Below are positions 12,144 to 35,679 of a DNA stretch of 64,000 nt, in pieces. Under the pieces are notes generated by a model. That model was not told the DNA's origin. It saw nothing but the letters and a program-made list of their open reading frames with translations, and ran no database searches. The position numbers and the translations under genes are program-made. Positions within the stretch are counted from its first letter, which is position 1. Each line of letters opens with the position of its first letter. Origin of the DNA: Brachybacterium vulturis (GTDB lineage: Bacteria > Actinomycetota > Actinomycetes > Actinomycetales > Dermabacteraceae); the NCBI RefSeq assembly GCF_002407185.1, contig NZ_CP023563.1, positions 1,426,001-1,490,000 of the forward strand, written 5' to 3'.

Positions 12144-14180
12144 TCACCAGGGCAGGACCTCCGGGACCGGGTCCGCGCCCAGGACGTGCTGGTCGCAGAA
12201 GGCCAGCACCGCCTGGTTCCAGGCCAGGGCGTTGGACGGGGTGAGCACCCAGTGGTTCTCGCTGGTCAGCTGCAGGAAGCGGTGCGGCATGTCCTGCGGC
12301 TCGCCGTCCCAGGTGGACACGAGGTCCCACCACAGCCGCAGCGCCTCGCTGATCGGCACCCGGAAGTCCCGGTTGCCGTGGGTGACCAGCATCGGGGTGG
12401 TGATCGCATCGATCTCGTGGTGCGGGGAGAAGGCCCGGTACCAGTCCGGGTCCTCGTCCTCGTGGCGGTGCACCCGCATCTTCGAGGCGGCGGCGTCGGT
12501 GGTGCGGTGCTGCTGGTCCAGCGCCCACAGCCCCGCATGGGTGACGATCGCGTCGAAGCGCTCGGTGTGCCCGGCGATCCAGTTGGCCATGAACCCGCCG
12601 AAGGAGGCGCCGAGCATCGCGGTGCGCGAGGCGTCGAGCTCGGCCCGCTGAAGCACCGAGTCCAGGAGGGTCTCGCACTCGTGGAAGACCACGTCCGGCC
12701 GGCGCGGCCAGCCCCGGTTCAGCCCCGCGTCCCCGTACCCGGTGGACATCGCGGGATCCGGCATCAGCACCGCATAGCCGCGCTCGACCGCGAGCCACGG
12801 GCACCAGCGCCAGCTCCAGGCGTTGTAGGAGCCGTGCGGCCCGCCGTGGATCCACAGCATGACCGGGGCCGGCTCCTCGGCCGACGCCCCCGTGGGAAGG
12901 CACAGCCAGCCGCCCACGGTGAGCCCGTCGACGTCCGTCTCGACCCATTCCAGGGTGCCGGGCAGGGCATCGACCGCGCCCGGGGCGGGCAGCTCACGGA
13001 GCGCCGCGCCGTCCTCGATCCGCACCGGCCGGGGCGGGCCGGCGATATCGGACCGCAAGGCGAACAGCTCGCCTCCTGGGGTCGGCGCCGGCGCGGAGAA
13101 CACACCCCCTGCCGCCACCCCGGTCGCCTCGCCGGTCGCCGGGTCGACGCGCAGCACCGCGCCGGAGGAGTGCAGGTCACCGGTGACCAACAGGGTGCCG
13201 TCCGGAGCCCACTCGAGGTCGGTGAGGCTCAGATCGCCCAGCTGCGCGGTGACCGGGTCGCCGCCGCCGACCGGATGGATCTCCAGGCGGCTGTAGCTGG
13301 TGTCGGTGGGGGAGGAGGCGGTCGAGCGGATCACGGCCAGGTGCCGGCCATCGCGGGAGAACAGCGGGGAGCCGAACTGTGCGGTCTCGTCCGCCGCGCA
13401 CAGCACGCTGCGGCGCAGGGTCGCGGTGTCGATCAGAGTGATCGAGCTGCGGGTCTCGCCGCCGCGCACCCGCTGCGTCCACGAGGTCGCGACCGTCGAG
13501 CCGTCCGGGGAGAGATCCGCGGAGGCGGCATGGAGGGTCACGGTGCCGACGTCCGGGGTCAGATCGGTGAGGTCCCCGTCCGGGGTGACCAGCACCAGTC
13601 GTCGGCTCTCGTCGCCGATCTCGTGGTCCCACTGCCGGATCGGCATCCCGGTGTGCCAGATGGTGGTCTGCTTCGCGTCCTTGCGGGTCTTCCGGCGCTC
13701 GGCATCCTCCTCGAGGCTGCTGCCGGGCAGCACACTGGTGGCGGCGAGCATGGTGCCGTCCGCGGCGACGGAGAGCAGGGACAGTCCCGCCGCGGCGGAG
13801 GCGACCACCTGCGCCTCGCCGGTGCGGGGCAGGCGCCAGATCGCGGCGACCTCCTCGTCGGCACCGCCCTCCGGATCCGGGCGGGCGGAGCTGAACAGCA
13901 GCGTGCCGTCGGGGGCGAAGCGGGGGGAGCTCTCGCCCTTCGCGGAGAAGGTCAGCCGGCGCGCGGGCTCCCGGCCGGCCGGATCCAGCTCCCAGAGCGA
14001 GGAGACGAGCTTCGCGCCGGGCTCGTCGGCCTGCTGGATCGCGGCGACCACCCGTCCGTCCTCGCTCGCGGTCACGGAGGTCAGGCGCGGGATGCGCAGG
14101 AAGGCGTCGACGTCGGTGAAGTCGGAGAAGGTGGTGAACTCCGGGGAGTCGGTGAACGGTGCAGCTGCGGAGGAGGTCAT
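12144..14180 (-). CDS. S9-family serine peptidase (acylaminoacyl/prolyl oligopeptidase-like)
   Basis: 678 aa cytosolic peptidase: an N-terminal beta-propeller (residues ~20-400, repeated DG-rich blades) and a C-terminal alpha/beta-hydrolase. Catalytic Ser lies in GASFGGF, Asp in HGNRDFRVP, His in SENHWVL; MLWIHGGPHGSYNAW is the oxyanion-hole region. Removes short or acylated N-terminal peptides. ATG 14180 is chosen because TAACGT lies 7 nt upstream (14188-14193), a leaderless pattern; a GTG three codons earlier is in frame but would overlap this box. Confidence 0.92.
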   Translation of the reverse strand: MTSSAAAPFTDSPEFTTFSDFTDVDAFLRIPRLTSVTASEDGRVVAAIQQADEPGAKLVSSLWELDPAGREPARRLTFSAKGESSPRFAPDGTLLFSSARPDPEGGADEEVAAIWRLPRTGEAQVVASAAAGLSLLSVAADGTMLAATSVLPGSSLEEDAERRKTRKDAKQTTIWHTGMPIRQWDHEIGDESRRLVLVTPDGDLTDLTPDVGTVTLHAASADLSPDGSTVATSWTQRVRGGETRSSITLIDTATLRRSVLCAADETAQFGSPLFSRDGRHLAVIRSTASSPTDTSYSRLEIHPVGGGDPVTAQLGDLSLTDLEWAPDGTLLVTGDLHSSGAVLRVDPATGEATGVAAGGVFSAPAPTPGGELFALRSDIAGPPRPVRIEDGAALRELPAPGAVDALPGTLEWVETDVDGLTVGGWLCLPTGASAEEPAPVMLWIHGGPHGSYNAWSWRWCPWLAVERGYAVLMPDPAMSTGYGDAGLNRGWPRRPDVVFHECETLLDSVLQRAELDASRTAMLGASFGGFMANWIAGHTERFDAIVTHAGLWALDQQHRTTDAAASKMRVHRHEDEDPDWYRAFSPHHEIDAITTPMLVTHGNRDFRVPISEALRLWWDLVSTWDGEPQDMPHRFLQLTSENHWVLTPSNALAWNQAVLAFCDQHVLGADPVPEVLPW

Positions 14181-26374: not shown

Positions 26375-26403
26375 TGCAACTCCTGAAGTACCTGTCATGA
26401 ACA

Positions 26404-26456
26404 ACTGATATATCAGTTACGAGCACACCGTATGATGGGGTTCGCGCGACGTCAAC
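26404..26456 (-). promoter_or_regulatory. Promoter and GntR-type operator of the glyA-soxBDAG-sdaA operon
   Basis: On the minus strand TTGACG (26451-26456) and TACGGT (26428-26433) are separated by exactly 17 bp. Eight bases downstream, over the expected transcription start, lies the perfect 16-bp palindrome AACTGATATATCAGTT (26404-26419). Its position fits a repressor site, and the divergent FCD-type GntR gene at 26508 is the obvious candidate regulator. Sequence features are certain; the pairing is inference. Confidence 0.7.
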
Positions 26457-26507: not shown

Positions 26508-27167
26508 ATGACCTCCTTGCCCGTGCATGCCGATCCCGCGCTCTCGCTCGCCGAGCGGGCGTACCGCACGCTGCGGGATCGCCTGGTCGTGCTCGACATC
26601 GCTCCGGGCGATCCCCTGCAGGAGAGTCGCCTCGCCGTGGAGCTCGACGTCGGCCGCACTCCGCTGCGGGAGGCGATCAAGCGGCTCGAGGTGGATCGGC
26701 TCGTGGTCTCCTACCCGCGCCGCGGAACCTTTGCGACCGGGGTGGACATCACCGAGTTGGCGACGGTGTCCGAGGTGCGTGAGCTGCTGGAGCCCCTCGC
26801 CGCGCGCAAGGCGGCCCTGCGTGCCGACCCCGAGGTGCGGGACGCGCTGCGCGAGGCGCACGAGGGGGTCGAGAGCCTGGTGGACGGCTCCCCCTGGCGC
26901 GAGGCGATGGCCGCGGATCTGGCCGTGCACCGCCTGATCTACCGCGCCGCGGGCAATCCTCACCTCGAGGACTCCCTGATCCGGCTCGACAACCTCGCCA
27001 CCCGCATCTGGAGCGTCATGGTCGACCGGCTCCCGGACGTGTCCGCGCACGTCCGGGAGCACCTCGCGCTGCTGGAGGCGATCCTCGCCGGCGATGCCGA
27101 CCGGGCCGAGGAGCTGACCCTCGCTCACATCCACCACTTCGACGCGATGGTCCGCCAGGTCATCTGA
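26508..27167 (+). CDS. GntR-family (FCD domain) regulator of the sarcosine operon
   Basis: 219 aa. N-terminal winged HTH (LAERAYRTLRDRLVVLDIAPG, RTPLREAIKRLEVDRLV; residues ~15-80) and an all-helical FCD ligand domain (~85-215) with the metal-binding pattern Asp in ADLAVHRLIY plus His residues in the last helices (HIHHFDAM). Divergent from glyA with a perfect palindrome between them. Likely senses a carboxylate such as sarcosine, glycine or serine; ligand inferred only from context. GAGGAAGGA precedes ATG 26508. Confidence 0.9.
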   Translation: MTSLPVHADPALSLAERAYRTLRDRLVVLDIAPGDPLQESRLAVELDVGRTPLREAIKRLEVDRLVVSYPRRGTFATGVDITELATVSEVRELLEPLAARKAALRADPEVRDALREAHEGVESLVDGSPWREAMAADLAVHRLIYRAAGNPHLEDSLIRLDNLATRIWSVMVDRLPDVSAHVREHLALLEAILAGDADRAEELTLAHIHHFDAMVRQVI

Positions 27168-27242: not shown

Positions 27243-27300
27243 TTGACGTCGGTCCCGTACGCACCTAGGTTCTATGCAACCCAGTTGCACACAAGGCAAC
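27243..27300 (+). promoter_or_regulatory. Promoter with GCAAC box upstream of MFS transporter
   Basis: -35 TTGACG (27243-27248), 17-bp spacer, -10 TAGGTT (27266-27271). Four bases later comes the three-part box GCAAC-N3-GTTGC-N7-GCAAC (27276-27300), which covers the expected start site. The same geometry recurs at 30248 and 33015. Confidence 0.75.
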
Positions 27301-27320
27301 CGATAGAGAGGCGGACGACG

Positions 27321-28703
27321 ATGTCCACTGCTTCCCAGGACGCAGCCACCCCGGCCGACGGTTCCCCCGACGCGGAATCCCAGAGCATGAGCGGGCGCTC
27401 GCGGGCCAACGACGGCACCGGCGTCACCCCGCAGACGCGACGCAAGGTGGTCGTCGCCAGCTTCATCGGCAACTTCGTCGAATGGTTCGACTACGCCGTC
27501 TACGGCTATCTCGCCACCACGATCGCTGTCGTCTTCTTCCCGGAGAGCGACCCGCGCGTCGCCCTGCTGTCCACCTACGCGCTGTTCGCGATCTCCTTCC
27601 TCATCCGTCCCATCGGCGGCTTCTTCTGGGGCAACCTGGGGGACCGGGTCGGTCGGCGGACGGCGCTCGCCTGGTCGATCCTGATCATGTCCGGCGCGAC
27701 CTTCCTCATCGCCCTGCTGCCCTCGTATCAGGCCGTGGGGTTCTTCGCCCCGCTGCTCCTGCTCGTGCTGCGCCTCGTGCAGGGCTTCTCCGCCGCCGGT
27801 GAGTACGCCGGCAGCTCCGCCTTCCTCGTGGAGTACGCACCGCCGCGCCGACGGGGCATGTATGCCGCGGTGGTCCCGGCGTCCACCGCCTCGGGCCTCC
27901 TCCTCGGCTCGCTGATCGCCTCGCTGCTGAGCGTGACGCTGACCGATCCCCAGATGGAGTCGTGGGGATGGCGCCTGCCGTTCCTGCTCGCAGCGCCGAT
28001 GGGCCTGATCGGCCGGTACATCCGGAACAAGCTCGAGGACACCCCCGAGTTCCAGGCCCTGGCGAAGGGCGACGACGTCGTGAAGGCGCCGACCAAGCAG
28101 CTGCTGGTCACCTACTGGCGCACCGGGCTGCTCGCCTCCGGCGCGGTCCTGCTCAACGCCGTCGGCTTCTACATGATCCTCAGCTACATGCCGGTGTACA
28201 TGTCGACCGAGCTCGGCCTGAGCGATACCCGCGCCTACATCGCCACCACGGTCGCGCTGTTCACCTATATCGGTTTCATCTTCCTCACCGGCCTGCTCTC
28301 GGACCGCTTCGGGCGGCGGAAGGTGCTGATCAGCGCCTCGGTGAGCTTCATCGTGCTCACCGTGCCGGCGTTCTTCCTGCTGGAGACCGATTCCTTCCTG
28401 GTGATCCTGCTGGTGCAGGTGCTGCTGGGCGCGATGCTCACCCTCAACGACGGCACGCTGCCCAGCTTCCTCGCCGAGCTGTTCCCCACCGAGGTCCGGT
28501 ATTCCGGCTTCGCCGTCAGCTTCAACCTGTCCAATGCGATCTTCGGCGGCACGGCTCCGTTCGTCGCCACGCTGCTGATCGGGATGACCGGCAGCACGAT
28601 CGCCCCCGCGTGGTATCTCATGGCCGCGGCCGCGGTCTCCCTGATCGCGGTGCTCATCGCGCGCGAGACCGCCCACCACGACCTGCGGCGTCAGGCCGCC
28701 TGA
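27321..28703 (+). CDS. MFS metabolite:H+ symporter (MHS family)
   Basis: 460 aa, 12 predicted transmembrane helices after a ~45-residue polar N-terminus. ASFIGNFVEWFDYAVYGYLA is the MHS (ProP/ShiA/KgtP) family start, and GNLGDRVGRRTALAWSI carries the MFS loop 2-3 motif; RLVQGFSAAGEYAGSSAFLVE is motif-typical. Such proteins import organic acids, betaines or related solutes. Sharing the GCAAC box with creatininase and creatinase genes suggests it carries creatinine, creatine or sarcosine. ATG 27321 is preceded by GAGAGGCGG. Confidence 0.88.
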   Translation: MSTASQDAATPADGSPDAESQSMSGRSRANDGTGVTPQTRRKVVVASFIGNFVEWFDYAVYGYLATTIAVVFFPESDPRVALLSTYALFAISFLIRPIGGFFWGNLGDRVGRRTALAWSILIMSGATFLIALLPSYQAVGFFAPLLLLVLRLVQGFSAAGEYAGSSAFLVEYAPPRRRGMYAAVVPASTASGLLLGSLIASLLSVTLTDPQMESWGWRLPFLLAAPMGLIGRYIRNKLEDTPEFQALAKGDDVVKAPTKQLLVTYWRTGLLASGAVLLNAVGFYMILSYMPVYMSTELGLSDTRAYIATTVALFTYIGFIFLTGLLSDRFGRRKVLISASVSFIVLTVPAFFLLETDSFLVILLVQVLLGAMLTLNDGTLPSFLAELFPTEVRYSGFAVSFNLSNAIFGGTAPFVATLLIGMTGSTIAPAWYLMAAAAVSLIAVLIARETAHHDLRRQAA

Positions 28704-28804
28704 TCCCCGCTGGTGCGGCCCGCCGCGTCCCCTGAGGGCTTCCATCGCGCGGCGGTTCTCGAGAGGATCGGGGGAACCAGAGGATCCGATCCGGGGAGGC
28801 GCAG

Positions 28805-29542
28805 ATGAGCACGCCGCTCACGAACGCCGACATCCCGACCTGGGTCACGGGCATCGCGATCGTGTCCCTCGCGCTCGCGATCATGTGCGCCGGCTGGGTC
28901 GCCGTCGACGTCGTGCGCAGACCCCAGCAGATGGGCGTGATGAACGTCGTGTGGCCGGTGGTGATGCTGTTCGGCAGCGTCGCCTGGCTGGCGTTCTATC
29001 TCCGGTTCGCGCGGGAGGGCTCGTCCCCGCGGGCCTCGGAGCAGGAGCACGAGGGGCAGGGGCGGGGCCGCGCCGCGCGGATCGTCTCCACCGCGACCGG
29101 GACCAACCACTGCGGTGCGGGCTGCACGCTGGGCGACCTGGCCGCCGATGTCCTGATGGCGCTGTTCCCCGCGCTCGTACCGGTCGCGCTGCTGCATCAC
29201 GAGGTCTACGGGGGCTGGATCGTCGGCACGGTCCTGGCCTTCGCCTTCGGGGTGGTCCTGCAGTACTTCGCGATCGCCCCCATGCGCCAGCTGGGTCTCG
29301 CCCAGGGGCTCCTCGCGGCGCTGAAGGCGGACGCGGCATCGATCGCCGCCTGGCAGGTCGGGATGATCGGGTTCATGGCGATCGTCCAGCTCGCCGTGCT
29401 GCCGCTATGGCTCGGCGGGCATGCGCCGCCGTCGACCCCCGCCTACTGGTTCTTCATGCAGATCGCGATGGTGATCGGCTTCCTGTGCAGCTACCCGGTC
29501 AATGCGTGGCTGATCCGACGAGGGGTCAAGGAGCCCATGTGA
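28805..29542 (+). CDS. DUF4396 membrane protein
   Basis: 245 aa integral membrane protein, about six helices. The segment TGTNHCGAGCTLGDLAAD (residues ~98-115) with its paired Cys and the N-terminal MNVVWPVVMLFGS are the signature of DUF4396 proteins; the Cys/His pair could bind a metal. Function unknown. Sits between the MFS transporter and the BCCT operon, on the same strand, with GGGAGGC before the ATG. Confidence 0.8.
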   Translation: MSTPLTNADIPTWVTGIAIVSLALAIMCAGWVAVDVVRRPQQMGVMNVVWPVVMLFGSVAWLAFYLRFAREGSSPRASEQEHEGQGRGRAARIVSTATGTNHCGAGCTLGDLAADVLMALFPALVPVALLHHEVYGGWIVGTVLAFAFGVVLQYFAIAPMRQLGLAQGLLAALKADAASIAAWQVGMIGFMAIVQLAVLPLWLGGHAPPSTPAYWFFMQIAMVIGFLCSYPVNAWLIRRGVKEPM

Positions 29543-29668
29543 GCGCCGCGGCCGCCCCGGCGGAGGCGCCGCTGGACAGCCGCCCCGTTCTGCGGCAGGG
29601 TCATCTGCAGTGACGCCGTGGACGGCATCCGGGCGCGCGAGCGGTCGTGGAGCGGAGGAGATGCGGCG

Positions 29669-30127
29669 ATGCCGAGACGAACGACCGGCACGACCGCGCA
29701 GGCGGGTCTCTACGTCCGCGAGCTGCGCAGGTCGCTGCGGAACAACTCCGGCGCCTTCGGCTACTCGGTCATGATCACCAGCACCATGGCGATGCTCAGC
29801 AGCATCGAGGGCAGCCCGCGACCCACCCACATCGTGCTCTTCCTGCTGGGCGCCGTCGCGAGCTTCGCCCTGATCGAAGCCGTCGCGACCCGCGCGTTCA
29901 CGCGCTCCCTGGAGGACGAGGACACCGCGGTCATCGCTCTCGGGGCCTCGTTGAACCTGTTCTCGATCGCGGGAGGCGTGGGCGTGGCGGCCGGACTCGC
30001 CGTCCTGCTCCCGGAGACCGCCTCGTGGCTGCTCGCCCCGTTCGCGGCGTCGGTCACCTACGTGCTGGTCACCGCGGTCGAGATGGCTGTCGCGCGACGC
30101 ATCGAGGAGAGGCGCCGGGTCGAGTGA
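29669..30127 (+). CDS. Hypothetical membrane protein
   Basis: 152 aa with about four hydrophobic segments (around residues 30-45, 55-75, 90-115 and 120-140) and a basic C-terminal tail (RRIEERRRVE). No recognised domain. ATG 29669 has GGAGGAG upstream; the frame also has an ATG 17 codons earlier. Located between the DUF4396 gene and the GCAAC-box promoter of the BCCT gene, so it is not clearly part of the creatinine regulon. Confidence 0.65.
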   Translation: MPRRTTGTTAQAGLYVRELRRSLRNNSGAFGYSVMITSTMAMLSSIEGSPRPTHIVLFLLGAVASFALIEAVATRAFTRSLEDEDTAVIALGASLNLFSIAGGVGVAAGLAVLLPETASWLLAPFAASVTYVLVTAVEMAVARRIEERRRVE

Positions 30128-30213
30128 GCGCCGGGGCGCCCGGATCCCGACGGGCGCTCTCCCCTCGGCCGGGGCCGAGTCGTCGACGATCGTGCAGGGG
30201 GGCCGGCGACGGG

Positions 30214-30272
30214 TTGACCGTGAGGCCGGTCACTGCGAGGATGTGCCGCAACCAAGTTGCCCATGATGCAAC
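30214..30272 (+). promoter_or_regulatory. Promoter with GCAAC box upstream of BCCT-creatininase operon
   Basis: -35 TTGACC (30214-30219), 17-bp spacer, -10-like GAGGAT (30237-30242), then after 5 bases GCAAC-N3-GTTGC-N7-GCAAC (30248-30272). Layout is the same as at 27276 and 33015. About 75 bases of leader follow before the BCCT start. Confidence 0.72.
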
Positions 30273-30346
30273 AGTTCGTCGGAAAGAGCTGCGTCCCGTC
30301 CCCTCCGAGGCGCCAGCCCACAACAGCGCCGTTGGAGGACGTCCAG

Positions 30347-32164
30347 ATGTCTACATCCGATTCCACAGACCACGAGAGCTCTCCGCCCGACGGCGACCGG
30401 GAGTCGGTCGAGACCGGGCCCGCCGCCACGGCCACCGAGGAGGGTTCCGAGGCCGAGCGCGGCAGCACCGTCGTCCTCCCGCGCTTCCGGGGCCGGCTGA
30501 TCCCGCCGCTGGACCGCGGGATCATCATGGTGCTGCCACCGCTGCTGATCCTCGCCGCGGTGATCGCGGTGATCGTGGACCCGGACGGCGCCGCCGCGGT
30601 CATCGGCCGCCTGCGCACCTTCGTCACCGGCGGCTTCACCTGGTGGTTCGTCGCCTATTCGCTGCTCGCCTTCGGCGTGTGCACCTGGCTGTGCCTCAGC
30701 CGGATGGGCTCGATCCGGCTGGGCGGTCCCAAGGCCCGGCCCGAGCACGGCAAGTTCGCCTGGTACTCCATGCTCTTCGCCTGCGGCCAGGGGATCGGCC
30801 TGATCTTCTGGTCGATCGCCGAGCCGATCCTGCTGCGCGAGGGCGCCCCGGTGGTCGAGGAGGCCGGCAACCCCGGCCAGGCCGGCATCGTGTGGACGTA
30901 CTTCCACTGGGGGCTGACGGCCTGGGCCATGTACTGCGTGGTCGCCATCTGCCTGGCCTACTCCCATCACAACCTCGGCAAGACCCTCACCTTCCGTGAG
31001 GCGACCGTGGACCTGCTCCCGGTCCGCGTCCAGCGGCCCGCCGGTGTCGTGATCGAGCTGCTGGCGATCATCGCCACCGTGCTGGGCCTGGCGACCTCCT
31101 TCGGCTTCGCCGCCATGCAGTTCAGCTCCGGCCTCACCTCCTTCACCGGGATCCTCTCCGGCCCCACCGTCTGGTTCGTCGTCATCGTGGTCCTCGGCGG
31201 GCTCACCGCCCTCTCTGCGTTCCTGGGCGTGAACAAGGGGATGAAGCGCATCAGCGAGCTGAACTCGGTGCTGAGCATCGTGCTGGTCATCGGGGTGTTC
31301 GTCTTCGGCCCCACCGTGTACATCCTGTCGAACCTCTCCCAGACCTTCGGGTCCTTCTTCACCAGCTTCATCCCGATGAGCTTCTGGACCGGCGCGGAGG
31401 GCGCCGCCGCGCCGCTCGGGGACTGGTCGGAGAGCTGGAACGGGATCTGGACGGTCTTCATCTGGTGCTGGGTGATCGCGTTCTCGCCCTTCGTGGCCGG
31501 ATTCATCGCCCGCATCTCCCGCGGCCGGACGATCCGCGAGTTCGTGCTGGGCGTGACGATCATCCCCACCCTGATCGTGATGGTCTGGGTGGCCGTGATC
31601 GGCTCGGCCGGCATCTACTACGACGACCGCTCCGGCGGCAGCGTCTCCGCCGACGTCGCCGAGAACACCTCCGCCGGTCTCTTCTCGATGATCGAGATGA
31701 TCCCCGTGGTCGGCGGCCCGCTGCTGGTGATCGCGACGATCCTGGTGGCCACCTACTACGTCACCAGCCTCGACTCGGGCACCTACGCCCTCGCCGAGTT
31801 CGTCTCGGCCCCGAAGAAGTCCGGTCCCCTGTTCCGGGTGGTCCTGGTCGCCAGCATCGGCACCGTCGCGGTCCTGCTGCTCGCGCTCGGCGGCGTGAAC
31901 GTCGTCGACACCGTCCAGACCGGCACCATCATCGGCGCCTTCCCCTTCTCCTTCGTGATCCTGCTGATGATCATCAACCTCGTCCGCCGCCTGCGCTCCC
32001 GCAACAAGTCCGTGCGCCAGCTGGAGAAGGACATCAACGATCCGGGCCATCGCGCGGAGGACGAGACCATCGACTCCGACGGGATCCCCCGCCCCGACCC
32101 GCGTCGCGGCGTCGGAGCGGGCACCCTCACCGAGCCCCAGAGCCCCTATGCGAGAAAACCCTGA
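30347..32164 (+). CDS. BCCT-family transporter
   Basis: 605 aa, 12 predicted transmembrane helices with charged N- and C-terminal cytosolic tails (first ~55 and last ~70 residues). The family's aromatic motif region matches KTLTFREATVDL/IVWTYFHWGLTAWAMYC and WTVFIWCWVIAFSPFVAGFIARISRGRT (parts separated by variable residues). BCCT carriers import quaternary-ammonium and related zwitterions. Seventeen bases before creatininase and under a GCAAC box, it most likely imports creatinine or creatine here; betaine or sarcosine is the alternative. GGAGG lies 8 nt before ATG 30347. Confidence 0.92.
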   Translation: MSTSDSTDHESSPPDGDRESVETGPAATATEEGSEAERGSTVVLPRFRGRLIPPLDRGIIMVLPPLLILAAVIAVIVDPDGAAAVIGRLRTFVTGGFTWWFVAYSLLAFGVCTWLCLSRMGSIRLGGPKARPEHGKFAWYSMLFACGQGIGLIFWSIAEPILLREGAPVVEEAGNPGQAGIVWTYFHWGLTAWAMYCVVAICLAYSHHNLGKTLTFREATVDLLPVRVQRPAGVVIELLAIIATVLGLATSFGFAAMQFSSGLTSFTGILSGPTVWFVVIVVLGGLTALSAFLGVNKGMKRISELNSVLSIVLVIGVFVFGPTVYILSNLSQTFGSFFTSFIPMSFWTGAEGAAAPLGDWSESWNGIWTVFIWCWVIAFSPFVAGFIARISRGRTIREFVLGVTIIPTLIVMVWVAVIGSAGIYYDDRSGGSVSADVAENTSAGLFSMIEMIPVVGGPLLVIATILVATYYVTSLDSGTYALAEFVSAPKKSGPLFRVVLVASIGTVAVLLLALGGVNVVDTVQTGTIIGAFPFSFVILLMIINLVRRLRSRNKSVRQLEKDINDPGHRAEDETIDSDGIPRPDPRRGVGAGTLTEPQSPYARKP

Positions 32165-32181
32165 CGAGAGGATGCAAGAGC

Positions 32182-32985
32182 GTGTCTGACACCGCAGCGC
32201 AGCAGCCGGTCCGACTGGCCCATCTGGATGCCCACCGCTATCGCGACTGGGTGGCCCGGGGCGGGGCGACCGTGATCGTGCCGGCCGGGGCCTTCGAGCA
32301 GCACGGCCCCCATCTGCCGATGGGGACCGACGCCCTGCTCTCCACGACGATCGCCGAGGCGGTGGCGGGCAGGACCGGGGCGAAGGTCGCCGAGCCCTTC
32401 GCCTACGGCTACAAGTCCCAGCAGAAGTCCGGCGGAGGCGACCACCTCCCCGGCACCATCAGCCTGGACGCCGCCGCCCTCATCGCGCAGGCGCGCTGCG
32501 TGCTCGCGGGCTTCCTGTCCCAGGGCGTGGAGAACCTGGTCGTGCTCAACGGGCACTTCGAGAACTACCAGTTCCTCTACGAGGCGGCGGATCTCGCGCT
32601 CGGCGACGTCCGGGCGGCCGGGGGCGGGGGAGGGGCGGCGCCGTCGGTGCTGCTGCTGTCCTACTGGGACTTCGTCTCCGAGGAGACCCTGGCAGAGGTG
32701 TACCCCGGCGGATTCCCCGGCTGGGACATCGAGCACGGCGGCGTCCTGGAGACCTCGCTGATGCTGCACCTGCGCCCCGAGCTGGTGGACATGGAGCGCG
32801 CCGTGAGCCATCCGGCGGCGAGCCTGCCGCGCTTCGATCGGCTGCCGGTCGTCGCCGAGCGCACCCCGGAGACCGGGTGCCTCTCCGCCCCCGACGGCTC
32901 CGATGCCCGCAAGGGGGAGCTCCTGTTCGAGCAGGTCACCGAGGATCTCGCGACGGATCTGCGCCGGGAGCTCGGCACCTCTTGA
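32182..32985 (+). CDS. crnA: Creatininase (creatinine amidohydrolase)
   Basis: 267 aa; interconverts creatinine and creatine. The metal ligands align with the Pseudomonas enzyme: Glu39 and His41 in AFEQHGPH, Asp50 in MGTDALL, His125 and Glu127 in NGHFENYQF. YGYKSQQKSGGGDHLPGT and SYWDFV...GWDIEHGGVLETSLML are near-identical to true creatininase rather than the broader MftE/FAPy-deformylase family. GTG start at 32182 follows a weak GAGAGGA. Cotranscribed with BCCT; the creatinase promoter overlaps its stop codon. Confidence 0.95.
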   Translation: MSDTAAQQPVRLAHLDAHRYRDWVARGGATVIVPAGAFEQHGPHLPMGTDALLSTTIAEAVAGRTGAKVAEPFAYGYKSQQKSGGGDHLPGTISLDAAALIAQARCVLAGFLSQGVENLVVLNGHFENYQFLYEAADLALGDVRAAGGGGGAAPSVLLLSYWDFVSEETLAEVYPGGFPGWDIEHGGVLETSLMLHLRPELVDMERAVSHPAASLPRFDRLPVVAERTPETGCLSAPDGSDARKGELLFEQVTEDLATDLRRELGTS

Positions 32986-33039
32986 CGTGACCCGCCGCAC
33001 GGCACACAATGAGTGCAACACGGTTGCGCTGAATGCAAT
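32982..33039 (+). promoter_or_regulatory. Promoter with GCAAC box upstream of creatinase
   Basis: -35 TTGACG (32982-32987, containing the creatininase stop codon), 17-bp spacer, -10 CACAAT (33005-33010), then after 4 bases GCAAC-N3-GTTGC-N7-GCAAT (33015-33039). Third copy of the box with identical spacing. Confidence 0.75.
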
Positions 33040-33112: not shown

Positions 33113-34369
33113 ATGACCACCACCCCCGCCACCGCGAGCTCCGTCTCCGAGCTGGAGCGCCTGAAGACCCTGCACATCGGCGAGAAGCAGCAGCTGACGT
33201 TCTCCGACGCCGAGTTCGAGCGCCGGCTGGGCGGGCTGCGCCGGATCATGGCCGAGAAGGACCTCGACGCCGTGATCCTCACCAGCTACCAGGGCATCAA
33301 GTACTACTCGGACTTCCTGTTCACCTACTTCGGTCGCAACTACGGCATGGTCGTCACCGCCGACGACACCTGCACCATCAGCGCCAACATCGACGCCGGG
33401 ATGCCCTGGCGCACCAGCTACGGCGAGAACCTCGTCTACACCGACTGGCAGCGCGACAACTTCTACTACGCGCTCCAGCAGGCCCTCGCCCAGCGCGGCG
33501 TGAGGAACCCCGGGCGACTGGGCATCGAGGACGACACCGTCCCGCAGCTCACTCGCCAGCAGCTCCAGGACACCTTCCCCGGCGCGGCGCTGGTGGACGT
33601 CTCCCAGGCCGCCATGCGCCAGCGGATGCTCAAGTCCGACGAGGAGATCGCCGTGATCCGCGAGAGCGCCCGGATCGGCGACATCGGCGGCCAGGCCATC
33701 AAGGACGCGATCCACGCCGGGGTCAAGGAGTTCGAGGTGGCGCTGGCCGGCACCCAGGCGATGACCCACGAGATCGCCCGGGCCTTCCCGCACCGCGAGA
33801 TCCGGGACACCTGGGTCTGGTTCCAGTCCGGCATCAACACCGACGGCGCCCACAACTGGGCCACCACCCGGGAGGTCCAGGAGCACGACATCCTGTCCCT
33901 GAACGCCTTCCCGATGCCCACCGGCTACTACACGGCCCTGGAGCGCACGCTCTTCTTCGGCGAGCCCGATGCGGAGTCCCTGCGGATGTGGAACGTCAAC
34001 GTCGAGGTGCACCGCGCCGGCCTCGAGCTGATCAGGCCCGGAGCGGTGTGCAAGGACATCGCCGCGGCGCTCAACGAGATCTACATCGGCTACGGCCTGC
34101 TGCCCAACCGCACCTTCGGCTACGGCCACTCCTTCGGCGTCCTGTCCCACTACTACGGCCGTGAGGCGGGCCTCGAGCTGCGCGAGGACATCGACACCGT
34201 GCTCGAGCCCGGCATGGTGGTCTCGATGGAGCCGATGATCACCGTGCCCGAGGGGCAGCCCGGTGCCGGCGGCTACCGCGAGCACGACATCCTCGTGGTC
34301 GGCGAGGACGGCGTCGAGAACATCACGAAGTTCCCCTTCGGCCCCGAGCACAACATCATCCCGGCCTGA
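33113..34369 (+). CDS. Creatinase (creatine amidinohydrolase)
   Basis: 418 aa, M24 'pita-bread' fold. Hydrolyses creatine to sarcosine and urea. It is creatinase and not an aminopeptidase: metal ligands of M24 peptidases are absent while creatine-binding residues of the Pseudomonas putida enzyme are kept with a constant offset (Phe73, Arg75, His247 in SGINTDGAHN, Glu277 in TALERTLFF, Glu373 in SMEPM). FGYGHSFGVLSHYYGREAG is near-identical. Own promoter with a GCAAC box; a hairpin follows. Feeds sarcosine to SoxBDAG. Confidence 0.96.
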   Translation: MTTTPATASSVSELERLKTLHIGEKQQLTFSDAEFERRLGGLRRIMAEKDLDAVILTSYQGIKYYSDFLFTYFGRNYGMVVTADDTCTISANIDAGMPWRTSYGENLVYTDWQRDNFYYALQQALAQRGVRNPGRLGIEDDTVPQLTRQQLQDTFPGAALVDVSQAAMRQRMLKSDEEIAVIRESARIGDIGGQAIKDAIHAGVKEFEVALAGTQAMTHEIARAFPHREIRDTWVWFQSGINTDGAHNWATTREVQEHDILSLNAFPMPTGYYTALERTLFFGEPDAESLRMWNVNVEVHRAGLELIRPGAVCKDIAAALNEIYIGYGLLPNRTFGYGHSFGVLSHYYGREAGLELREDIDTVLEPGMVVSMEPMITVPEGQPGAGGYREHDILVVGEDGVENITKFPFGPEHNIIPA

Positions 34370-34453: not shown

Positions 34454-34870
34454 ATGGATCCCGTCGACCGTCGAGGCCGGTACGCCGTCGAGTTCGCGAT
34501 GCACGAGGGGCGGGGGCCGCTGAGCGTCGAGCACCACTTCGCGGGTGACTCGCAGCTCATGGCCGCCGTCCAGACCTGGACGCTCGGGCCCGGTGCCTGC
34601 GAGGGCATGCACGCCCACGACGACCCGCCCCTCGAGGAGCTCTACCTGGTCATGGAGGGCCGGGCCCGGATCCGTCAGGACGGCGAGAGCTTCGAGCTGG
34701 GCCCCGGCGACAGTCTCCGCAGCCCGGCGGGAACCCCGCACGACCTCGCGAACCCCGGCGAGGGACCGCTGCGGGTGGTGGTGATCTGGGGGCCTCCGGG
34801 GACCTTCGACCAGAGCGGCTTCGGCTCCTTTCGGCGGGCGCTCGAGGCCCGTCGCGCGGCGGACGCGTAG
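34454..34870 (+). CDS. Cupin-domain protein
   Basis: 138 aa single double-stranded beta-helix. First cupin motif GACEGMHAHDDPPLEELYLVMEG (two His and Glu ligands spread over it), second motif SPAGTPHDLANPG. Metal-binding small enzyme or sensor; substrate unknown. CAGGAGG precedes ATG 34454. Between creatinase and the IclR gene on the same strand, so it may process a side product or bind an effector of the pathway. Confidence 0.85.
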   Translation: MDPVDRRGRYAVEFAMHEGRGPLSVEHHFAGDSQLMAAVQTWTLGPGACEGMHAHDDPPLEELYLVMEGRARIRQDGESFELGPGDSLRSPAGTPHDLANPGEGPLRVVVIWGPPGTFDQSGFGSFRRALEARRAADA

Positions 34871-34911: not shown

Positions 34912-35679
34912 ATGGTCAGCACCACCGGGAACGAGAGCCCCGTGCGCAGCGGGTCCCCCGTCGCGACCGCGATGGCGATCCTGCGCTGCTTCACGGCCCA
35001 GCACCCGGTTCTCGGCGTGGTCGACATCGCCGAGCAGGTCGGGCTGCACAAGTCCTCGGTCTCTCGGATGCTGCCCACCCTCGAGGCGGAGGGCCTGGTC
35101 GAGCGCGACCCCTACTCCCAGAAGTACCGTCTCAGTCTCGGCCTGCTGCACATCGCGGGATCGCTGCTGTCCGATCTGGACATCCGCCGCGCCGCCGCGC
35201 CGGTTCTCGCCGAGGTCACCGAGGCGACAGGGGAGACCAGTTCGCTGCTGCTGTGGGACGGTGAGGCGGCGGTGACTGTGGAGCAGGTGCCCTCGAAGCG
35301 GGCTGTCAAGCACGCTGTCGAGCTGGGAACCCGGTACCAGACCCTTGCCTCCAGCTCGGTGCGGATCCTGGTGAGGGAACTCGCCGCCGGCGACCGTGCC
35401 GCGCTGCTGGAGCGTCTGAACACGAGCGAGGAGGCACTGGCGGAGCTCTCGCGCGAAGACGACGAGCGCACCACCGTCAATGACGGCCTCACAGTGCCCG
35501 ACGAGGTGGGCGTCGCCGCGGCCGTCCGCGACCATCGTGGCCTCCTGGTGGGAGCGATGATGATCGCCGCGCCCCGCTATCGGGTGGACGCCACCCGGCG
35601 TGCCGAGCTCCGCACGGCCTGCGCCGACGCGGCGGCGGCCACCACGAGCCGGCTCGGGGGCGTCCCGCACGCGAGCTGA
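34912..35679 (+). CDS. IclR-family transcriptional regulator
   Basis: 255 aa. N-terminal winged HTH (LGVVDIAEQVGLHKSSVSRML, residues ~35-55; LVERDPYSQKYRLSLGLL) and C-terminal IclR effector domain with GAMMIAAP near residue 220. It lies at the end of the BCCT-creatininase-creatinase-cupin series and is the best candidate to read the GCAAC boxes; its own upstream region has no such box. Ligand could be creatinine or creatine. GGAGAGCAGAG lies before ATG 34912. Confidence 0.9.
   Translation: MVSTTGNESPVRSGSPVATAMAILRCFTAQHPVLGVVDIAEQVGLHKSSVSRMLPTLEAEGLVERDPYSQKYRLSLGLLHIAGSLLSDLDIRRAAAPVLAEVTEATGETSSLLLWDGEAAVTVEQVPSKRAVKHAVELGTRYQTLASSSVRILVRELAAGDRAALLERLNTSEEALAELSREDDERTTVNDGLTVPDEVGVAAAVRDHRGLLVGAMMIAAPRYRVDATRRAELRTACADAAAATTSRLGGVPHAS

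Follow-up and report, generated by a model that had tools for sequence, protein, structure and literature searches.

Genes and boxes of the locus

The window, a stretch of 64,000 nucleotides of Brachybacterium vulturis (contig NZ_CP023563.1, positions 1,426,001 to 1,490,000), contains transporter, enzyme and regulator genes of the creatinine and creatine pathway. Genes were named from Pfam and NCBIfam matches. The genes, and the boxes GCAAC-N3-GTTGC-N7-GCAAY that precede some of them, are as follows:

26508–27167, plus strand: GntR/FCD regulator (Pfam GntR and FCD), not regarded as the protein that binds the box
27276–27300, plus strand: box 1, GCAAC-N3-GTTGC-N7-GCAAC, exact match, preceding the MFS transporter gene
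27321–28703, plus strand: MFS transporter of the metabolite/H+ symporter type (Pfam MFS_1; the best NCBIfam model, TIGR00883, scores below its cut-off), putative target of box 1
30248–30272, plus strand: box 2, GCAAC-N3-GTTGC-N7-GCAAC, exact match, preceding the BCCT transporter and creatininase genes
30347–32164, plus strand: BCCT transporter (Pfam BCCT, E 1.5e-136), first gene after box 2
32182–32985, plus strand: creatininase (NCBIfam TIGR04448, above cut-off), second gene after box 2
33015–33039, plus strand: box 3, third half-site GCAAT, exact to GCAAY and with one mismatch to GCAAC, preceding creatinase
33113–34369, plus strand: creatinase (Pfam Creatinase_N and Peptidase_M24), first gene after box 3
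34454–34870, plus strand: cupin protein between creatinase and iclR (Pfam Cupin_2)
34912–35679, plus strand: IclR-family regulator (Pfam HTH_IclR and IclR_C), the probable box binder by co-occurrence, probably in the creatinase operon

The creatinase matched no NCBIfam model above cut-off, and its name rests on the Pfam domains and the gene context. Between the MFS and BCCT genes (28805–30127) lie genes for a DUF4396 protein and for a protein without a Pfam match at E 1e-5, and no box precedes either.

The IclR protein carries the IclR helix-turn-helix domain PF09339 (55.0 bits, cut-off 22) and the effector domain PF01614 (52 bits, cut-off 24). Its best NCBIfam model is the PcaR/PcaU/PobR subfamily, TIGR02431, at 84.3 bits, far below the cut-off of 284.75, and on this score the protein is not assigned to that subfamily. 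Among solved structures its closest relative is 3obf, an IclR-family protein whose function is not named. Creatinase and cupin are separated by 84 bp and cupin and iclR by 41 bp, and no terminator-like site turned up between the three genes in a simple scan. The iclR gene is probably transcribed from the box 3 promoter, within a creatinase-cupin-iclR operon. This would explain why iclR has no box of its own; as the first-pass annotation had said, there is none in front of iclR or glyA within this window. The regulator thus seems to be autoregulated through the creatinase operon.

Sequence, rarity and geometry of the box

All three boxes reported by the first-pass annotation, at 27276, 30248 and 33015, were found there on the plus strand. 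Their description as identical holds for the GCAAY pattern but not for box 3, which ends in GCAAT. The scan of the genome that the annotation had suggested gave exactly three matches to GCAAC-N3-GTTGC-N7-GCAAY in 3,796,663 bases, all of them in the window, and the same pattern read backwards, used as a control, gave none. A first-order Markov model estimated from the window predicts ∼0.002 copies per genome; the box is rare. When up to three mismatches to the GCAAC form were allowed, the genome yielded the three boxes (0, 0 and 1 mismatches), one site with two mismatches and then background, the totals being 46 matches for the box pattern and 54 for the backwards control. On the copy number, the control counts and the Markov estimate, chance or a common genomic repeat was rejected as the origin of the box. 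In its own genome the box stands before three operons, in keeping with the probable regulon proposed earlier. The window holds no further site within two mismatches, and hence no upstream auxiliary box at that limit.

Half-sites 1 and 2 are inverted relative to each other with 3 bp between them, half-sites 2 and 3 likewise with 7 bp between them, and half-sites 1 and 3 make up a direct repeat at 20 bp, about two helical turns. The conserved spacing had been taken as a sign of a protein-binding site, and the collected loci bear this out. A search for GCAAC-x-GTTGC-y-GCAAC (x from 0 to 12, y from 0 to 20) in loci L014–L093 and L132–L164 returned 79 triples, 76 of which were spaced 3,7, and the result was unchanged once repeats were removed by flank. 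A fourth half-site was sought in the column profile of the boxes, where no downstream column rose above the 0.35-bit display limit. Individual boxes do have a fourth half-site (e.g. L019).

This geometry is that of a known type of operator. In its main text, PMC8222616 describes two types of IclR motif, GTT-11-AAC (group 1) and GRAAC-N3/4-GTTYC (group 2), and 32 orthologous groups predicted to have three boxes that alternate in direction, in which there is one pair of each type; its named three-box precedents are PcaU, PobR and HmgR. By these definitions the alternating half-sites and the 3,7 spacing of the window and of the 76/79 triples have the geometry of a three-box IclR operator: the 3-bp pair fits group 2, the 7-bp pair is the GTT-11-AAC of group 1, and the window regulator has IclR domains. 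The half-site GCAAC/GTTGC departs from the consensus GRAAC/GTTYC there at one position, the R/Y. Half-site sequences vary within the family (Table 1 of PMC8222616), and we read GCAAC as a variant of the family consensus. Besides the half-site, the differences from the operators in that text are the creatine/creatinine target pathway and the fixed placement over the expected start.

Placement of the box relative to the promoter

Each box follows a promoter-like sequence:

27243–27271, plus strand: TTGACG-N17-TAGGTT, 4 bp before box 1, assigned by eye and missed by a strict sigma-70 consensus scan
30214–30242, plus strand: TTGACC-N17-GAGGAT, 5 bp before box 2, assigned by eye and missed by the strict scan
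32982–33010, plus strand: TTGACG-N17-CACAAT, 4 bp before box 3, with 9/12 consensus bases in the strict scan

The TTGAC(G/C) element resembling a −35 starts 33, 34 and 33 bp before boxes 1, 2 and 3, respectively, and the −10 hexamers were assigned by eye, assuming 17-bp spacers. The first-pass annotation had placed the box 4–5 bp after the −10 of a promoter with TTGAC(G/C) and a 17-bp spacer. The placement stands; the creatinase promoter alone passes the strict scan, and the −10 elements of the other two are weak by themselves. What argues for the reality of these two elements is that the offset is conserved in relatives.

In the relatives, 98 different promoter-proximal boxes (67 exact and 31 at 14/15) were collected from 73 loci; the boxes that entered the offset and pairing counts had been chosen beforehand at ≥14/15 fixed bases, and gene starts are tblastn ends rather than mapped starts. 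In 88 of the 98 the best-scoring sigma-70-like −10 starts 9, 10 or 11 bases before the box, so that the box begins 3–5 bp after it, and TTG is found at −34 to −32 in 87. No single offset exceeds about 4 in shuffled controls. Transcription is assumed to start 6–8 bp after the −10. The earlier suggestion that the box lies over the start site is supported by these 88 boxes. In a third set, made up of 21 boxes that overlap, are reversed or have no query gene close by, the usual offset is seen one time, at −9.

There are also 12 boxes located upstream of another one, four of them with a −10 at the usual offset and two with TTG, and most of these 12 look like auxiliary sites. In some relatives, many of them Arthrobacter-type, a second box is found roughly 100–170 bp upstream of the promoter box (L041:8399 with 8542; L063:9759 with 9880). 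A role of the distal box in looping, or as an auxiliary operator, is possible; by eye, no helical period is apparent in the double-box distances of the Arthrobacter-type loci (about 96–168 bp).

A position just downstream of the −10 and over the expected start, as in those 88 of 98 promoter-proximal cases, is that of a repressor. Nevertheless, PcaU, close in type to the window regulator, is an activator, so that repression by the IclR protein is not a given, and the 12 distal boxes suggest more than a simple roadblock in the relatives that have them. We therefore considered that the same protein, bound to the same box, is chiefly an activator that depends on the effector, or alternates between the two modes. 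Its nearest named family is PcaR/PcaU/PobR, though with a score below cut-off, the use of three half-sites is shared with PcaU, PobR and HmgR (main text of PMC8222616), and distal upstream boxes do occur in some relatives. Against this stand the repressor position of the boxes and the lack in the window of an upstream auxiliary box within two mismatches, and we regard an activator as unlikely here. The reading as a repressor is kept below.

The placement also raises the idea that the box acts as RNA, since pairing of half-sites 1 and 2 could give a hairpin of 5 bp with a loop of 3 nt and the box starts close to where transcription is expected to begin, right at the 5′ end of the messages. However, among 131 boxes (655 base-pair cells) there were no compensated double changes, 19 one-sided wobbles and 29 broken pairs. 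The third half-site, dispensable for a hairpin, shows the same conservation as the other two (in boxes preselected at ≥14/15), and there are boxes that run opposite to the nearest gene or sit upstream of a further box. The hairpin was rejected on the pairing counts, the reversed boxes and the distal boxes, which leave it scarcely credible; a DNA site is the better reading.

Co-occurrence of the box with the IclR regulator

Creatinase loci from other genomes were scored for a box with at least 14 of the 15 fixed bases. Among the best 80 of 590 confirmed loci, less 11 dropped for a short flank, 48 had both box and IclR, 18 had neither, two had the box only and one had IclR only (Fisher P = 2e-13; here and below, Fisher P values overstate the evidence, as the loci share ancestry and are not independent). 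Both box-only loci (L058 and L065) come from genomes with a full-length IclR homologue elsewhere and a box near it, and the best site of the IclR-only locus (L072) matches at 13/15. The 18 loci lacking both comprise six from Firmicutes, six proteobacterial, one from Binatia and five actinobacterial (L021, L049, L054, L074 and L083). In L021, from Glutamicibacter creatinolyticus, the IclR gene of the creatinase cluster is broken into two frames (13750–14170) and the cluster has no site reaching 13/15; another cluster of the same genome has an intact IclR homologue and three exact boxes, before two MFS transporter genes and creatinase.

The association was also seen in genomes not chosen by creatinase. 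A survey of 297 genomes of the order, in most of which the nine best first-look candidates for IclR were scored, found the exact box in 21, an IclR homologue (E ≤ 1e-30) in 32 and both in 20; a homologue was thus present in 20 of the 21 genomes with the exact box and in 12 of the 276 others (Fisher P = 7e-22). Eight of these 12 have a 14/15 box near an IclR gene (G020, G066, G083, G164, G205, G218, G300 and G309), and the remaining four (G089, G112, G131 and G176) have no 14/15 box in the stretch covered. In the one genome that has the exact box but lacks IclR at E ≤ 1e-30 (G056, locus L164), the stretch covered around the box shows no homologue of any of the 13 query proteins from the window, and the contig ends about 900 bp away. 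This box is probably a chance match, because the backwards control also matched once in the 297 genomes. Within the genus Brachybacterium the box is patchy, an exact GCAAY box being found in 4 of 35 other genomes. Taken across these loci, the box marks a predicted regulon present in many actinobacteria.

The GntR protein and its own palindrome

The first-pass annotation had named the IclR protein as the best candidate for the box binder, and the counts agree, co-occurrence with the box being near-complete for IclR and weak for GntR. The GntR gene adjoins the MFS gene and a homologue is present in many of the same loci, which would favour binding of the box by the GntR/FCD protein (26508). However, a GntR homologue is missing from 28 of the 50 box loci in the stretch covered, two loci have GntR without the box, and the P value for box and GntR, whose co-occurrence falls short of that expected of an operator and its regulator, is 0.011, versus 2e-13 for box and IclR. 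A good GntR homologue is present in two of the box-less actinobacterial loci, L021 and L049, and the presence of GntR is therefore not enough to bring the box.

GntR has, moreover, a candidate operator of its own between glyA and the GntR gene:

26403–26418, plus strand: palindrome AACTGATATATCAGTT, probable GntR operator

This is the sole copy in the genome within two mismatches. In relatives with divergent glyA and GntR genes, ACTGATATATCAGT is present at ≥12/14 bases in 28 of 30 different intergenic regions (29 of 31 if one genome, L056/L155, is counted twice), and the exact core GATATATC in 15 of the 31; shuffled regions almost never reach 12/14, although the consensus itself was derived from these same regions. 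On the co-occurrence counts and the palindrome of its own (TGATATATCA), GntR was rejected as the box binder, a role that we rate as highly improbable. GntR probably controls glyA and the sarcosine oxidase genes (glyA-sox), the sarcosine step, through its own operator. In two relatives (L039:8361 and L042:2610) the divergent glyA gene starts about 50 bp away from a box, and there, unlike in the window, the IclR regulon may include glyA-sox.

A sister IclR clade and the second creatinine route

In a tree of 96 IclR rows the creatinase-linked proteins fell into several groups, with open forks and unsettled bootstrap values, and the starred 10-row sister clade alone was used. Within the stretch covered, nine of its 10 rows have an N-carbamoylsarcosine amidohydrolase gene, and seven an N-methylhydantoinase gene as well; the exception, L028, has neither. 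The protein identities in L034 rest on PDB entries 1nba (E 4e-158) and 7hk5 (2512 bits). An exact (15/15) box lies between the divergent N-methylhydantoinase and amidohydrolase genes of L160 (5649–5673), 14/15 boxes lie beside the amidohydrolase gene in L034 (14010–14318), L146 (5062) and L159 (5583), and 13/15 sites occur in L028, L133, L136 and L156. No box was found in L150, nor beside the amidohydrolase of L051. L136 is a Pseudonocardia genome, otherwise an apparent exception, which joins the sister clade with weaker support. In this clade the box goes with the regulator and not with creatinase.

These loci allow a broader scheme, which we put forward tentatively and consider rather doubtful. 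Two sister IclR clades would read a single code, the GCAAC three-box, which would control both creatinine routes, that through creatinase and that through N-methylhydantoinase and N-carbamoylsarcosine amidohydrolase. The half-sites would allow two alternative dimer arrangements, on the 3-bp or the 7-bp pair, with the effector choosing one, and the box itself would be the switch over the start site.

Discussion

The box, its rarity and spacing, its promoter offset and its co-occurrence with IclR were read directly from the genomes, and from them we infer binding, repression, an effector and the operon structure. It is likely, in our view, that the IclR protein (34912) is a repressor that sits on the box over the start site of three operons and is released by a pathway metabolite. 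The regulator would recognize the GCAAC half-sites, with the box as its operator. With transcription assumed to start 6–8 bp after the −10, the bound protein would cover the start and block RNA polymerase at the MFS, BCCT-creatininase and creatinase-cupin-iclR operons. Binding of a pathway metabolite to the effector domain would lift the block, and the position of iclR inside a repressed operon would limit the level of the regulator itself. A separate protein, GntR, would act through its own operator on glyA-sox and the sarcosine step.

Creatininase was found in 15 of the 50 loci with box and IclR, within the stretch covered, and the remaining genomes could carry it at another place. As most box loci of other genomes show creatinase and no creatininase in the stretch covered, our guess is that creatine is the likelier effector for the creatinase-linked IclR clade.

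In Bacillus thuringiensis, sarcosine oxidase genes are reportedly under SoxR/sigma-54 control, a system that is alike in controlling the downstream sarcosine step and unlike in regulator, sigma factor and organism. The creatine genes of Corynebacterium glutamicum ATCC 14067 are under AmtR, of the TetR family (PMC8864220, main text). As proposed here, actinobacterial creatinine/creatine transporter and enzyme genes are governed by a DNA-binding regulator; the regulator family is another one and the signal is nitrogen starvation, and the term IclR is absent from that main text. The main text of PMC8222616 contains none of creatin-, hydantoin, sarcosine or Arthrobacter. Our literature search, which stopped short of the PMC8222616 supplement and RegPrecise, found no paper on IclR control of creatine or creatinine genes. 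We regard the regulon as new and well-supported, with a known type of operator. The observation in the first-pass annotation was right, and its interpretation is very probably right too.

For the breakdown of creatine and creatinine in actinobacteria, the analysis provides a concrete candidate pair of regulator and operator. The box, short and rare, has a fixed place at the promoter, and the IclR-box pair could become a sensor for creatine or creatinine. The 98 promoter-proximal boxes of one geometry also form a natural set with which to ask why some IclR proteins use three half-sites.
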